64,000 nucleotides of DNA, taken from NCBI RefSeq assembly GCF_026410385.1, contig NZ_JAPMLT010000001.1, positions 1 through 64,000 of the forward strand, read 5' to 3'. A program made the position numbers and the translations under genes. Shown in pieces: positions 2,484 through 10,102 of the stretch. The stretch is from Tumebacillus lacus (GTDB lineage: Bacteria > Bacillota > Bacilli > Tumebacillales > Tumebacillaceae). Position 1 is the stretch's first letter. The number at the start of each line of letters is the position of its first letter. The notes below the pieces were generated by a model. It made no database searches, was not told where the DNA came from, and worked only from the letters and a program-made list of their open reading frames with translations.

Positions 2484-2523
2484 TATTGGGTCAAAAGTGA
2501 AAGAGAGGGGGCGAACAAAGCGG

Positions 2524-3033
2524 ATGGAATGGACCGACGTGTATGAAGAGCATGCCGACAATGTGTTTCGCTTTTTGATGTATTTTCTCGGCAACCGCGA
2601 AGATGCGGAAGATGTGACGCAAGAGACGTTTTTAAAAGCGTTTCACAAACAAGACTCCTACAAACAGCAAGCCTCGATCCGCACTTGGCTGATCATCATC
2701 GCGCGGCACCAGGCGATCGACCGCGTGCGGCGCAAACAGCGCGGCAAACTGTTGCACAACCTGTTCCGACGCGAGCAGCCGGAGCAGATCGCACTGCCGG
2801 AGGAAATGCTGTTCCAGAGCGAGACCAAGCGGGAGTTGTATCTGGAGATCCAGAACCTCAAGCCTGATTACCGGGCCGTGGTCATCCTCAAAGGCATCCA
2901 AGAGCTGACCAACCAAGAGGTGGCCGATATCCTTGGCTGGTCAGAGGGCAAAGTGCGCGTGACCTTTCATCGGGCGATCAAGTCGCTTGGCGGCAAACTC
3001 ATGAAGGAGGCGGAAGCGTATGGAATGGTCTAG
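2524..3033 (+). CDS. ECF-type RNA polymerase sigma factor
   Basis: A 169-residue sigma-70 family protein of the extracytoplasmic-function class. Region 2 covers about residues 8-72, with the DAEDVTQETF stretch typical of helix 2.2-2.3 and RTWLIIIARHQAIDRVR at the region 2.4 end. Region 4 covers about 115-162, with a helix-turn-helix around EVADILGWSEGKVRVTFHRA. There is no region 1.1 or 3. The ATG at 2524 has a GAGAGGGGG purine tract upstream. The last 14 bases overlap the next gene, a membrane protein that has the layout of an anti-sigma factor, so the pair is very likely a cognate sigma/anti-sigma system. Its target regulon cannot be read from this window. Confidence 0.93.
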   Translation: MEWTDVYEEHADNVFRFLMYFLGNREDAEDVTQETFLKAFHKQDSYKQQASIRTWLIIIARHQAIDRVRRKQRGKLLHNLFRREQPEQIALPEEMLFQSETKRELYLEIQNLKPDYRAVVILKGIQELTNQEVADILGWSEGKVRVTFHRAIKSLGGKLMKEAEAYGMV

Positions 3034-3844
3034 CGAGGAACGCAAAGTGGTAGAAGAACTGGGCGAGATGCCGACGTTTCGTCTCTCGCCTGAGAAGCGC
3101 ATGACGATGCGCGGAGCCGTGCAACACCGGATGCAGCAAGCCAGCCGTCGCCGCTTCACGCTGATCGCGGGCGGGGCGGCCTCCGTTGCCTTGGCGGTCG
3201 TGCTGACCGTCGGACTTTGGCAGAGCGGGTCGTTGCCGGGGATCGGCGGCGGCTCGGTCACGGGCGGCCTCGGTCAGCCGTCGCATTCGCAGGAGATGAC
3301 ATTTGTGGCGGAGTTTCAGATCAAGTCCGCGCCGGGGGAGACGGTCTCCGAAGAGGGCCTACATGCGACCGTTGCCGCGTTGAAAAAACGGGCCGAGGTG
3401 GCAGGGTTAATCCCGTGGGAGATGCAGACGATCTCGCCGGATCGGGTGAAGATCTGGTCTGGCGGTACTTTTGATCGTGACCTAGTAGTGCAGATGTTCC
3501 TGCAGGAGGCAAAAATTGAGTTTAAATCGCCGGAGGGTGAGGTGCTGGCAAACGGCCGAGATCTCAAGTCGAATGCACGGATGATGTTCGATCAGGCGGG
3601 ACAGCGACCGGTGCTGATCGAATTTAAAGATGCGGCACTGCTGCGGGACATCACCAGTGCCTACCGAGGACAACAAGTGTCGATCTGGTTGGACGGTGTG
3701 CTGCTGGCGTCGCCGACGATTCAAGAGGAGCTCTTGAACGGGCAGGTGGCACTCGCAGTGCCTGAACCGGCGCAAATGGTGAGTCTGATCAATGCAGGCG
3801 CGCTTCCGTATGAATTGGAAGTGGTCCAGCAGACAGCACAATAA
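3020..3844 (+). CDS. Putative membrane anti-sigma factor with SecD P1-like extracytoplasmic domain
   Basis: A 274-residue single-pass membrane protein: about 45 charged cytoplasmic residues, one membrane helix at about 46-67, a Gly/Ser linker, then an outer domain at about 93-270. The outer domain resembles the P1 domain of the translocase subunit SecD: LKKRAEVAGL (121-130) matches the SecD RRVDxLGV-type motif, WLDGVLLASPTI (223-234) matches the VLDGxVxSxPxI motif, and AGALPYELEVV (259-269) matches the conserved end. The 12 SecD membrane helices are absent. It starts inside the sigma gene (14-base overlap, GAAGGAGG upstream), which implies coupled translation and an anti-sigma role. The anti-sigma assignment rests on context and topology; no ZAS zinc motif is visible. 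Confidence 0.75.
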   Translation: MEWSSEERKVVEELGEMPTFRLSPEKRMTMRGAVQHRMQQASRRRFTLIAGGAASVALAVVLTVGLWQSGSLPGIGGGSVTGGLGQPSHSQEMTFVAEFQIKSAPGETVSEEGLHATVAALKKRAEVAGLIPWEMQTISPDRVKIWSGGTFDRDLVVQMFLQEAKIEFKSPEGEVLANGRDLKSNARMMFDQAGQRPVLIEFKDAALLRDITSAYRGQQVSIWLDGVLLASPTIQEELLNGQVALAVPEPAQMVSLINAGALPYELEVVQQTAQ

Positions 3845-3846
3845 GG

Positions 3847-3882
3847 AAAGGCTCGATCCAAGACGTGGATCGAGCCTTTTTT
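3847..3882 (+). terminator. Rho-independent terminator of the sigma/anti-sigma operon
   Basis: An AAAGGCTCGATCC...GGATCGAGCC stem followed by a T run, beginning 3 bases after the stop codon. Confidence 0.92.
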
Positions 3883-3916
3883 GCAAGAGTCGGACTGTAT
3901 GGGAGAGTCGGAACCT

Positions 3917-3945
3917 TTGTCAGGGTGCGGTTAATAAGATATAAT
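3917..3945 (+). promoter_or_regulatory. Strong sigma-A promoter for the GRAS-family gene
   Basis: TTGTCA (3917-3922), a 17-base spacer and a perfect TATAAT (3940-3945), 40 bases before the start codon. Confidence 0.8.
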
Positions 3946-3984
3946 CATTGAAATGATGGAGTTAAAAGATAGTGAGGAGATAAA

Positions 3985-5103
3985 ATGGTTGATGTTTTAG
4001 ATACGAACAAACCCTCTTGCCCGAAAAAGTCGTTACTGACAAGTCTCGTCGAAGCGCTGTATGCAAAACGGGATGAGGAGGCGCAAGGGGTCTTGGAACG
4101 GTTGGTGCGCGATCATCTCGATCCGGATCAAAATCCCGAAGATTTGATCTACTATGTGTTCACCTCTGCGCTGTCCAAACGGCTGCAGTCGAAAGCGACA
4201 GACGAGATCAACCTCTATTTGAAAAAATATGAAAACACGCAGATCGATCTGTTCAATCTGGTCGCCCGCCACATGCCGTTTGTCGGCGGTGCAGGGCAAC
4301 TGGCGAATCTGCATCTCGCCCCGCATATGGCCGGTCAGGAGCGCGTCACCTACCTCAACATCGGGATCGGTACCGGCCGTCAAGAGGTGGCTCTGCTGGA
4401 GCTGTTGAAAGAACAGGATCAACTGCCCCGGCAGATGACGGTGATCGCCGTCGAGCCGTTCCTCGATGCGCTGACAGAGGCGGAACGGGCGATTCGTGAG
4501 GCATGCGGTCGTCTGGGCGTGGAAGTGGACGTGCGCACCCTGCACACGGTGTCTGAAGAACTGACGGACGCCGACTGGGAGTCGTTCCGCCCGACGGACG
4601 GATCCCCGTTGCTGATCAACAGTGCTTTTGCCCTGCATCACATTCGCGGCGTGGGCGAAGAAGCGGGTACCCGTGAGCGGGTGTTCGGCAAACTGGGCGC
4701 GTTGCAACCGGCGGCGGTGGTGTTGTGCGAGCCCAATTCAGATCATTTCCATTCCGATCTGCCTGTGCGGTTTGCAGCGTGCTGGCATCATTTTTCACAC
4801 GTGTTTGATTTTATCGACCGGATCGAGACGACGGGCGAGGAAAAGATCGCGTTGAAAATGTTTTTTGTCCGAGAGATCGAAGACATCCTCGGCAATCGTG
4901 AAGAAAACCGTTACGAACGCCATGAACGGGCGCAAACATGGGCTGCACGTCTGCAAAGTGCCGGATTTGAATTGATGATCGATGAAGAGGCGATGCAGAA
5001 GGTCGCGCGTCTTCATCCGCTGATGGAAGTCGTGAAACACGAGGGGTACATCGGTCTCGACTATCGCGGCGAAACGCTGGTAGCCGTCTTCTGCGGCGTG
5101 TAA
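3985..5103 (+). CDS. Bacterial GRAS-family protein (Rossmann methyltransferase-like)
   Basis: A 372-residue protein whose central and C-terminal parts follow the GRAS domain known from plant transcription regulators and from some bacteria, where it has been proposed to be a Rossmann-fold methyltransferase. Visible landmarks are YLNIGIGTGRQE (123-134, glycine loop in the place of VHIID), INSAFALHHI (211-220), a VVLCEPNSDHF strand-loop (245-255), and the PFYRE/SAW-like block with RYERHE (309-314) and WAARLQSAGF (319-328). The first ~95 residues are helical and unassigned. There is no signal peptide. It has its own promoter and GAGGAG site and is flanked by terminators, so it is monocistronic. 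The substrate is unknown; the fold call is strong, the enzymatic role is inference. Confidence 0.85.
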   Translation: MVDVLDTNKPSCPKKSLLTSLVEALYAKRDEEAQGVLERLVRDHLDPDQNPEDLIYYVFTSALSKRLQSKATDEINLYLKKYENTQIDLFNLVARHMPFVGGAGQLANLHLAPHMAGQERVTYLNIGIGTGRQEVALLELLKEQDQLPRQMTVIAVEPFLDALTEAERAIREACGRLGVEVDVRTLHTVSEELTDADWESFRPTDGSPLLINSAFALHHIRGVGEEAGTRERVFGKLGALQPAAVVLCEPNSDHFHSDLPVRFAACWHHFSHVFDFIDRIETTGEEKIALKMFFVREIEDILGNREENRYERHERAQTWAARLQSAGFELMIDEEAMQKVARLHPLMEVVKHEGYIGLDYRGETLVAVFCGV

Positions 5104-5107
5104 ACAG

Positions 5108-5150
5108 AAAAAGAGACCGGGTGCTCAAACGGCACACGGTCTCTTTATTT
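5108..5150. terminator. Bidirectional terminator between convergent genes
   Basis: An AAAGAGACCG...CGGTCTCTTT hairpin with A-rich and T-rich flanks, placed between the GRAS gene and the minus-strand small membrane gene. Confidence 0.85.
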
Positions 5151-8609: not shown

Positions 8610-9083
8610 ATGTTGTTCTATGTTTTGATTGCCCTGGTGGTTGGGATCGACCAATGGGTGAAATACTACGTGCGAACCAATATGGATCTCTACGAATCGT
8701 ATCCGCTGATCGAAGGCGTGATCAACATGACGTCGCACCGCAATCCTGGTGCGGCTTTTGGCATCCTCGCCGGGCAGCAGTGGTTTTTCCTGCTCAGCAT
8801 GCTGGCGGTGATCGTCGTGGTGTTCTACTACCGTCGCAAGGGGGAGTTGATCGGCCGTCCGGTGATGGCGACAGGGCTCGCGTTACTGGTTGCGGGTGCG
8901 ATCGGCAACGGGATCGACCGGATGGTGTTCCGGGAGGTCACCGATTTCTTTGATTTGCAATTTGTCAACTTTGCGATCTTTAATGTAGCCGATATCGCGA
9001 TCAACGTCGCGGTCGGATTGATGGTGCTGTCCGCGCTTTTTGAAGGGCGGAACGTGAAAGAAGGCCAGCAGGAGGAGTCATAA
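8610..9083 (+). CDS. lspA: Signal peptidase II (lipoprotein signal peptidase)
   Basis: A 157-residue polytopic membrane aspartyl protease that cleaves prolipoprotein signal peptides after lipidation. It has four membrane helices (about 1-15, 55-73, 84-102 and 122-142). Catalytic aspartates are Asp103 in GNGIDR and Asp128 in FNVADI; the NPGAAFG motif (45-51) is present. The ATG at 8610 is used; an in-frame GTG at 8601 next to GGAAGAGG is an alternative that adds three residues. Its stop codon overlaps the ATG of the next gene (TAATG), a conserved lspA-ylyB arrangement. It ought to process the lipoproteins encoded here, such as the GerC subunit. Confidence 0.95.
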   Translation: MLFYVLIALVVGIDQWVKYYVRTNMDLYESYPLIEGVINMTSHRNPGAAFGILAGQQWFFLLSMLAVIVVVFYYRRKGELIGRPVMATGLALLVAGAIGNGIDRMVFREVTDFFDLQFVNFAIFNVADIAINVAVGLMVLSALFEGRNVKEGQQEES

Positions 9084-10102
9084 TGGCAGAATATCAAGAT
9101 CTGGATGAGCTGCTCGAAGACGAGCCGTTTGAAGAGGAAGAAGAGGCGGGCGAGCGCACGGTCTCGGTGCTCGGCAGCGGGCTGTCGGAGTTTACGGCGG
9201 AGCAAGGCGGCGAGCGCGTGGACAAGCTGATCGCCGAACAGAGCGGCGGGGCGCTGTCCAGGACGCAGGTCCAAGACCTCATCGATCAGGAACTGATCGT
9301 GGTCAACGGCAAGAAGGTCAAGTCGAACTACAAGCTCAAAGCAGGCGACACGGTCACGGTCAACGTGCCGGAGCCGCAAGAGGTGTCTGTCGAACCGGAA
9401 AACATCCCGCTGGACGTGGTCTATGAGGACAGCGATGTGATCGTGGTGAACAAAAAGCGCGGCATGGTGGTGCATCCGGCGATGGGGCATTACTCGGGCA
9501 CGCTGGTCAACGCGCTGCTCTACCATTGCAAGGATCTCTCCGGGATCAACGGCGAAGTGCGCCCCGGCATCGTACACCGCATCGACAAGGACACGACCGG
9601 TCTGTTGATGGCGGCGAAAAACGATCTGGCCCATCGCGGGCTGGCCGCACAGCTCAAGGAGCACAGCGTGACCCGCAAATACGTGGCGGTCGTGCACGGC
9701 GTGATCCCGCATGACCTCGGCACGGTGGAAGCGCCGATCGGCCGCGACCCGGTGCATCGCCAGCAGATGGCGGTGGTGCGCGAGGGCGGACGCGAGGCGG
9801 TGACGCATTTTCAGGTGATCGAGCGTCTGCCCAAGCACACGGTCGTCGAGCTGAAACTCGAAACAGGACGGACGCATCAGATCCGCGTACATATGGAGTT
9901 TATCGGCCATCCGCTGGTCGGCGACCCGAAGTACGGCAATCAAAAGCGCAACCGCTTTGGCGATATCCTCCAAGGGCAAGCGCTGCATGCGCAGGTGCTG
10001 GGGTTTGTACATCCGCGCACGGAGGAGTATCTGGAGTTCTCGGCGGAGATGCCGGATGAAATGGTACGGCTGATTGAAAGATTGAAGCAAGAAGAGGCTT
10101 GA
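9083..10102 (+). CDS. RluD-type 23S/tRNA pseudouridine synthase (YlyB-like)
   Basis: A 339-residue pseudouridine synthase of the RluA/RluD family. It has an unusual acidic N-terminal extension (about 1-25), an S4 RNA-binding domain at about 41-100, and a catalytic domain with HRIDKDTTG at 165-173, where Asp168 is the catalytic residue. RTHQIRVH lies near the C-terminal third. It converts uridines in rRNA or tRNA to pseudouridine; the exact target is not deducible. Its start overlaps the lspA stop by one base (TAATG), implying coupling. Its stop codon overlaps the -35 box of the pyr promoter. Confidence 0.93.
   Translation: MAEYQDLDELLEDEPFEEEEEAGERTVSVLGSGLSEFTAEQGGERVDKLIAEQSGGALSRTQVQDLIDQELIVVNGKKVKSNYKLKAGDTVTVNVPEPQEVSVEPENIPLDVVYEDSDVIVVNKKRGMVVHPAMGHYSGTLVNALLYHCKDLSGINGEVRPGIVHRIDKDTTGLLMAAKNDLAHRGLAAQLKEHSVTRKYVAVVHGVIPHDLGTVEAPIGRDPVHRQQMAVVREGGREAVTHFQVIERLPKHTVVELKLETGRTHQIRVHMEFIGHPLVGDPKYGNQKRNRFGDILQGQALHAQVLGFVHPRTEEYLEFSAEMPDEMVRLIERLKQEEA

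Follow-up and report, generated by a model that had tools for sequence, protein, structure and literature searches.

The GRAS locus of Tumebacillus lacus

The window, by which we mean the whole 64-kb stretch of Tumebacillus lacus DNA analyzed here, carries an uninterrupted open reading frame with an ATG start that encodes a protein of the GRAS family (Table 1). To the left of this gene are eight clustered tRNA genes (667-1629), an AAA ATPase gene, and an ECF sigma factor gene that overlaps a putative anti-sigma gene. To the right are a small minus-strand ORF and genes for DUF5665, YteA and LspA, an order also found in five relatives (G001-G004 and G006); the stretch fetched from G005 contains part of YteA, plus LspA only. 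Read by eye, with a 'bacill_yteA' match, the window order continues as yteA-lspA-rluD-like-pyrR-uracil permease, which we take to be the arrangement of Bacillus.

None of the six stretches fetched from relatives showed the AAA, sigma, anti-sigma or GRAS gene; some of these stretches extend only a short way to the left. Among 13 other genomes of the order, only G001 has a whole-length relative of the anti-sigma protein, located elsewhere in its genome. At the place of the GRAS gene, G003 has an M3 peptidase-like gene (named by eye) and tRNAs, and G004 and G006 have tRNAs. Because the content of this place differs between relatives, with tRNAs in three of them, we conclude that the GRAS gene occupies a variable site beside tRNA genes. 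G001 carries there a cluster with MFS-like and peptidase-like genes (names partly by eye), and a 907-aa protein with an aminotransferase part (L038:5013-7736) that may belong to a biosynthetic cluster.

Table 1. Coordinates of the GRAS gene, its pocket residues and its neighboring features in the window
Feature	Position	Strand	Evidence
ECF-type sigma factor, GRAS neighbor	2497..3033	+	Sigma70_r2 and r4_2
Putative anti-sigma protein, outer part a SecDF P1 head domain	3020..3844	+	PF22599
Terminator-like hairpin 3' of anti-sigma gene, between it and the GRAS promoter	3844..3882	+	-26.0 kcal/mol, six T ending 3' arm
Sigma-70-type promoter match TTGTCA-17-TATAAT	3917..3945	+	11/12 consensus positions; match to consensus only
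Ribosome binding site GAGGAG	3974..3979	+	Five bases upstream of GRAS ATG, read from sequence
Predicted SAM-dependent methyltransferase with GRAS domain, 372 aa	3985..5103	+	PF03514 E 6.5e-36; model pLDDT 87.3; plant GRAS the best structural matches
SAM-binding motif I, glycine loop NIGIGTG, residues 125-131	4357..4377	+	G127, G129, G131 in 29/29 bacterial GRAS
E157, acid at strand 2 end, expected SAM ribose contact	4453..4455	+	E/D in 29/29 bacterial, G/G/P in 3 plants; role by analogy with Asp77 of CysG
H218-H219 pair after strand 4, candidate metal/substrate ligands	4636..4641	+	Both in 29/29 bacterial, 0/3 plants
Terminator-like hairpin between GRAS and small minus-strand ORF	5110..5146	.	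-22.9 kcal/mol

The initial annotation credited the gene with a very strong promoter and its own terminator. The gene does have its own promoter match, one of three sites with at least 11 of 12 positions that a consensus scan found across the 64 kb, both strands included, but a consensus match says nothing about strength. The downstream hairpin is a plausible terminator, with ATTTCC after it on the plus strand and a five-T run on the minus strand; it is weaker than described, since a terminator scan with a strict intrinsic-terminator rule, which this hairpin fails, reported it on neither strand. The same scan reported the hairpin upstream of the promoter on the minus strand only. Control of the GRAS gene by the upstream sigma pair was considered and rejected, as the upstream hairpin intervenes; GGAACC at 3910-3915 resembles what we take to be an ECF -35 box, and no matching ECF -10 was seen by eye.

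Family membership and predicted structure

All three sequence features named in the initial annotation are present, namely the NIGIGTG loop, INSAFALHHI (211-220) and RYERHE...W...AGF (309-328). The PF03514 profile matches the protein strongly (124.5 bits versus a cut-off of 27; residues 16-343, profile positions 3-340 of 374), and the genome (4.18 Mb) has no second match to this profile. In a single-sequence search of solved structures, DELLA RGA came first (2.3e-14), followed by SCL3, DELLA 1, SHR and OsSCL7. Using the motif names of PMC4279901, the VTYLN of the window protein aligns with VHIID, with different letters and with G131 and Q133 kept, and its SAW segment retains R309, E311 and W319; N212, E249 and R262 are likewise shared with plant GRAS proteins.

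An AlphaFold2 model built from 9 sequences (pTM 0.87) has a Rossmann methyltransferase-type fold, as in plant GRAS domains. By VIA, residues 9-372 of the model superimpose on SCL3 (6kpb) with a Z of 38.5 over 347 residues; the top eight entries are plant GRAS (Z 34.9-38.5), with SAM methyltransferases next at Z of at most 19.6, and the top 12 Foldseek rows are also plant GRAS structures. The likeness to SCL3, DELLA RGA (9lum), OsSCL7 (5hyz) and SHR/SCR (5b3g) extends over the whole length, cap and core, at 18-22% identity, although the window protein lacks the long N-terminal region of the plant proteins. Profile match and predicted fold both bear out the annotation, and the window protein belongs to the GRAS family and fold.

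Foldseek's first matches outside the GRAS family are SgvM, an alpha-keto acid C-methyltransferase (7.8e-8), and 4m6x (1.8e-7), which we take to be MppJ, and these two make up the best six non-GRAS matches. Like the window protein they combine a helical N-terminal domain with a Rossmann core, but identity is 12-14%, 8fts aligns over 223 of 372 residues (Z 15.8), and the match of a bacterial GRAS profile to SgvM is not significant (E 0.46). The first non-GRAS entries by VIA are CmoA (Z 19.6) and the metal-dependent O-methyltransferases CysG/BelI (Z 18.9-19.1), further ones including EgtD, SgvM and MrsA (Z 15.8 to 15.0). Nearly the whole CysG/BelI chain fits the window core (9g0k, 208 of 213 residues, Z 19.1); these chains have ~210-230 residues versus 372 in the window protein, however, and align only from residue 87 or 88 onward. 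Bacterial GRAS profile searches gave non-significant matches to BelI (E 1.0-1.4) and arsenite methyltransferase (E 0.14).

Conservation of the pocket

We compared pocket positions in 29 bacterial GRAS proteins, the window protein and 28 relatives, with three partial plant sequences (RGA, DELLA 1 and OsSCL7). The window protein has the Rossmann fold, the glycine loop and the acid after strand 2, all features of class I SAM methyltransferases. Kept in all 29 bacterial proteins are G127, G129, G131, an E or D at 157, E191, N212, H218, H219, E249, P250, D278 and E297, and position 269 is His in 27. Position 125 is D in 28 of the 29, the window protein alone having N. The three plant pieces, by contrast, have lost G129, E157, E191, P250, E297 and the His-His pair, through one of its two histidines. 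Neither SAM nor SAH was bound in ITC by plant GRAS domains, whose SAM-binding motifs are missing, according to PMC5873383 with reference to the SHR-SCR structure work.

Adjacent histidines after strand 4 are also found in CysG/BelI, where Ca2+ is bound by His122-His123-Asp191 and docking places the substrate carboxylate on the calcium (PMC11408123). The ranges of the non-significant BelI match put H218-H219 at BelI 122-125, within about two residues of 122-123, and the invariant D278 is a possible counterpart of Asp191. Wild-type CysG and BelI remain active with EDTA and a truncated form does not (PMC11408123), so the role of the metal is not simple even there. In SgvM, zinc is held by H244 and H296 and the keto acid binds to the zinc (PMC10502145). 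By analogy with these enzymes, H218-H219 may hold a metal. An LHH after strand 4 is nevertheless common among methyltransferases without a metal. When the His-His stretch alone served as a profile, the search recovered no SgvM, BelI, arsenite methyltransferase or plant sequences; its only three matches were unrelated repeat proteins.

Distribution of bacterial GRAS genes

The description of bacterial GRAS proteins as rare holds for the class and phylum samples of T. lacus, and less so for one family of Bacteroidota. PF03514 matches above the cut-off occur in one of 4 genomes of the genus, one of 7 of the family, one of 14 of the order, and one of 398 in both the class and the phylum samples, several of which overlap, and the one is always the window's own genome. 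The PF03514 search thus did not find the gene in the three other genomes of the genus, and the class sample held one weak match below the cut-off (G1079, 21.1 bits). Among Bacteroidota, GRAS genes are present in 4 of 395 sampled genomes, and in the family of Larkinella in 19 of 200, the center genome included in each case. A scan of the GTDB species collection with two degenerate peptide patterns, which misses some relatives, returned eight loci, all in Bacteroidota.

Carriage of close relatives by phages or plasmids was also considered and rejected: a search of 50,697 phage records returned no relative, nor did a pattern scan of viral contigs, which detects close relatives only, and relatives occur in 2 of 72,556 plasmid records, both from Skermanella. 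These two plasmids (~310-330 kb) come from oil- or hydrocarbon-contaminated desert, and on both the GRAS gene is convergent with a PAS-type kinase gene accompanied by a response regulator (L002, L003).

The bacterial relatives, from Bacteroidota, the Skermanella plasmids and G553, are 26-33% identical to the window protein, with 33% for its best bacterial match, and share its pocket positions. The window protein differs from them in its phylum, in N125 and in having no enzyme partner gene.

Gene context of the relatives

An enzyme gene adjoins the GRAS gene in 23 of the 28 related loci compared (L002-L011, L044-L046 and L063-L077), always on the same strand. The partner is a class I/II aminotransferase in 12 (L007, L044, L045, L068 and L070-L077), a phosphotriesterase (PTE)-family hydrolase following the GRAS gene in seven (L046, L063-L067 and L069), and a lactonase whose gene overlaps the GRAS start in four, all Larkinella (L005, L006, L009 and L010). 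As the 28 loci come from few lineages, these counts are not independent; aminotransferase partners fall on about four tree branches, namely L044, L007 (with a fragment in L008), L045 and one Spirosomataceae clade. No intact partner of the three kinds was present in L002, L003, L004, L008 and L011. In L008 the first 37 aminotransferase residues are encoded downstream of GRAS, followed by a group II intron maturase piece (8996-9412), which seems to have interrupted the aminotransferase gene. Two of the pairings occur together in G909, whose two GRAS genes adjoin an aminotransferase (L068) and a PTE-family hydrolase (L069), respectively.

Six of the 12 aminotransferases, one of the seven PTE-family hydrolases and one of the four lactonases were scanned against family libraries, the rest being named by BLAST to these. 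HisC was the best NCBIfam match of all six aminotransferases, two scoring above that cut-off and four below; given the two that pass the plain HisC cut-off, some may be ordinary histidine genes. No further homologue of three query aminotransferases was found in the flanks of the 28 loci at 1e-5. In the 64 kb of the window, no homologue of the partner aminotransferases, PTE or lactonase was found. The T. lacus genome (G000) was also searched for a partner aminotransferase away from GRAS: of its eight matches, compared with seven, six and seven in its three genus mates, none stood out.

Phylogeny and origin

In our trees, whose root serves drawing only, the plant proteins group with L044, supported at 100/99 in the full tree and at 99/97 once OsSCL7 and seven further sequences, near-duplicates or others, are removed. 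The corresponding values for the window protein, which groups with the Bacteroidota set, are 95/91 and 88/89, and its branch measures 1.6-1.7 changes per column. Both joins are uncertain because the branches are long. The L044 protein (L044:3631-4752 in G553) is much closer to plant DELLA than that of the window, matching DELLA 1 at 7.2e-37 with phmmer when the whole open frame is the query; its glycine loop is complete and its His-His pair present. This sequence fits the bacterial subgroup that has been reported in a clade with plants (PMC12448838).

The initial annotation had raised the question of transfer. A recent uptake from a plant, or plant or other foreign contamination of the assembly, could account for the gene not being found in three genus mates, for its solitary above-cut-off occurrence in the class sample, and for a left flank that is not common to the relatives in the stretches fetched. 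Yet the gene sits on an 840 kb contig whose order from 5148 rightwards matches that of G001-G004 and G006, its GC (0.559) and GC3 (0.651, second lowest among 11 genes) lie inside the range of its neighbors, and it has a bacterial promoter match and ribosome site. Moreover, both trees join the plants to L044 and not to the long window branch, and the window protein has pocket residues missing from the plants compared. Flank synteny, composition and both trees lead us to reject plant transfer and contamination as extremely improbable, and the idea of a recent gift from plants is left without support.

Proposed function

We propose that the window protein, as a member of the bacterial GRAS family, is probably a functional SAM-dependent methyltransferase acting on a small carboxylate substrate. 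This proposal draws on the retention of the SAM positions, the helical cap, fold neighbors that methylate small acids with the aid of a metal, and enzyme neighbors of amino acid, ester and lactone type. SAM would bind at the NIGIGTG loop with its ribose held by E157, and a helical cap (about residues 13-115) over the Rossmann core would enclose a small carboxylate, most likely an amino acid, an alpha-keto acid or a derivative. A divalent metal would probably be coordinated by H218/H219, with D278, E297 or H269 as an additional ligand. Counting against the proposal are N125, the failure to find homologues of the partner enzymes in the 64 kb, and the non-significant profile matches to SgvM, BelI and arsenite methyltransferase. 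The nearest model is beta-methyl amino acid synthesis, in which a keto-acid methyltransferase is paired with an aminotransferase. Because the window gene has no adjoining enzyme partner, having lost it or never had one, the substrate class is drawn from relatives in other phyla, and there is more doubt about the substrate of the window protein itself than about the chemistry.

Plant GRAS proteins are regulators, and the window protein could instead be a signaling or regulatory protein that binds a small molecule such as SAM or SAH without turnover and works with adjoining signal-transduction genes. The ECF sigma/anti-sigma pair ahead of the window gene would suit such a role, as would the kinase genes directly convergent with GRAS on the Skermanella plasmids, with the response regulator behind, and a convergent PAS hybrid kinase in L011. 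In L004 a Crp-type regulator is encoded two genes further along, followed by a gene resembling the L011 and L045 kinases, and in L045 a hybrid kinase lies just upstream, besides the aminotransferase. Such genomes commonly encode histidine kinases, however, which makes these genes weak evidence. Between the sigma pair and GRAS lie the hairpin and a promoter match of the gene's own, and the SAM-binding positions kept in all 29 bacterial sequences and the enzyme genes adjoining GRAS in most related loci point to catalysis, so that we regard a purely regulatory role as unlikely. Still less likely, in our estimation, is a methyltransferase or SAM-derivative enzyme of the tRNA pathway, CmoA-like and not acting on a free small acid. 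CmoA is indeed the best non-GRAS match by VIA, but CysG/BelI are level with it (Z within 1), Foldseek places SgvM and 4m6x in its best six non-GRAS matches, and the scanned partner genes are small-molecule enzymes by family name.

A broader and more tentative extension of the methyltransferase proposal is that bacterial GRAS proteins are metal-assisted amino or keto acid methyltransferases in two-gene operons with a HisC-like aminotransferase, ancestral to DELLA, SCARECROW and other plant regulators. We hold this to be possible but doubtful. The suggestion of an enzyme ancestry arises because in G553, nearest to plants here, the GRAS ATG overlaps the TGA of the aminotransferase gene.

Significance

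Bacterial GRAS proteins and their place among Rossmann methyltransferases were described by Zhang, Iyer and Aravind (2012), and these points and the transfer to plants are already published, as cited in PMC4279901, PMC5834537, PMC9942845, PMC10952515 and PMC5332381; the window protein therefore adds a member to a known group. We add the conservation of the SAM positions and the His-His pair in the bacterial sequences compared, the loss of several of these in the three plant pieces, the nearest folds, and the partner genes of the relatives. The literature searched did not mention pairing with an aminotransferase, PTE or lactonase; we do not claim the pairing as unreported, as the 2012 description possibly covers neighbors. 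The parts of that literature available to us likewise held no measured function for any bacterial GRAS protein, in agreement with the annotation of these proteins as being of unknown function.

Plant GRAS proteins govern growth, root patterning and symbiosis, and are considered to be of bacterial origin (PMC5834537, PMC12448838). The partner genes and nearest folds narrow the 'small-molecule methylase' to a few candidates open to assay, and a bacterial substrate would tell what the cavity of plant GRAS proteins once held.
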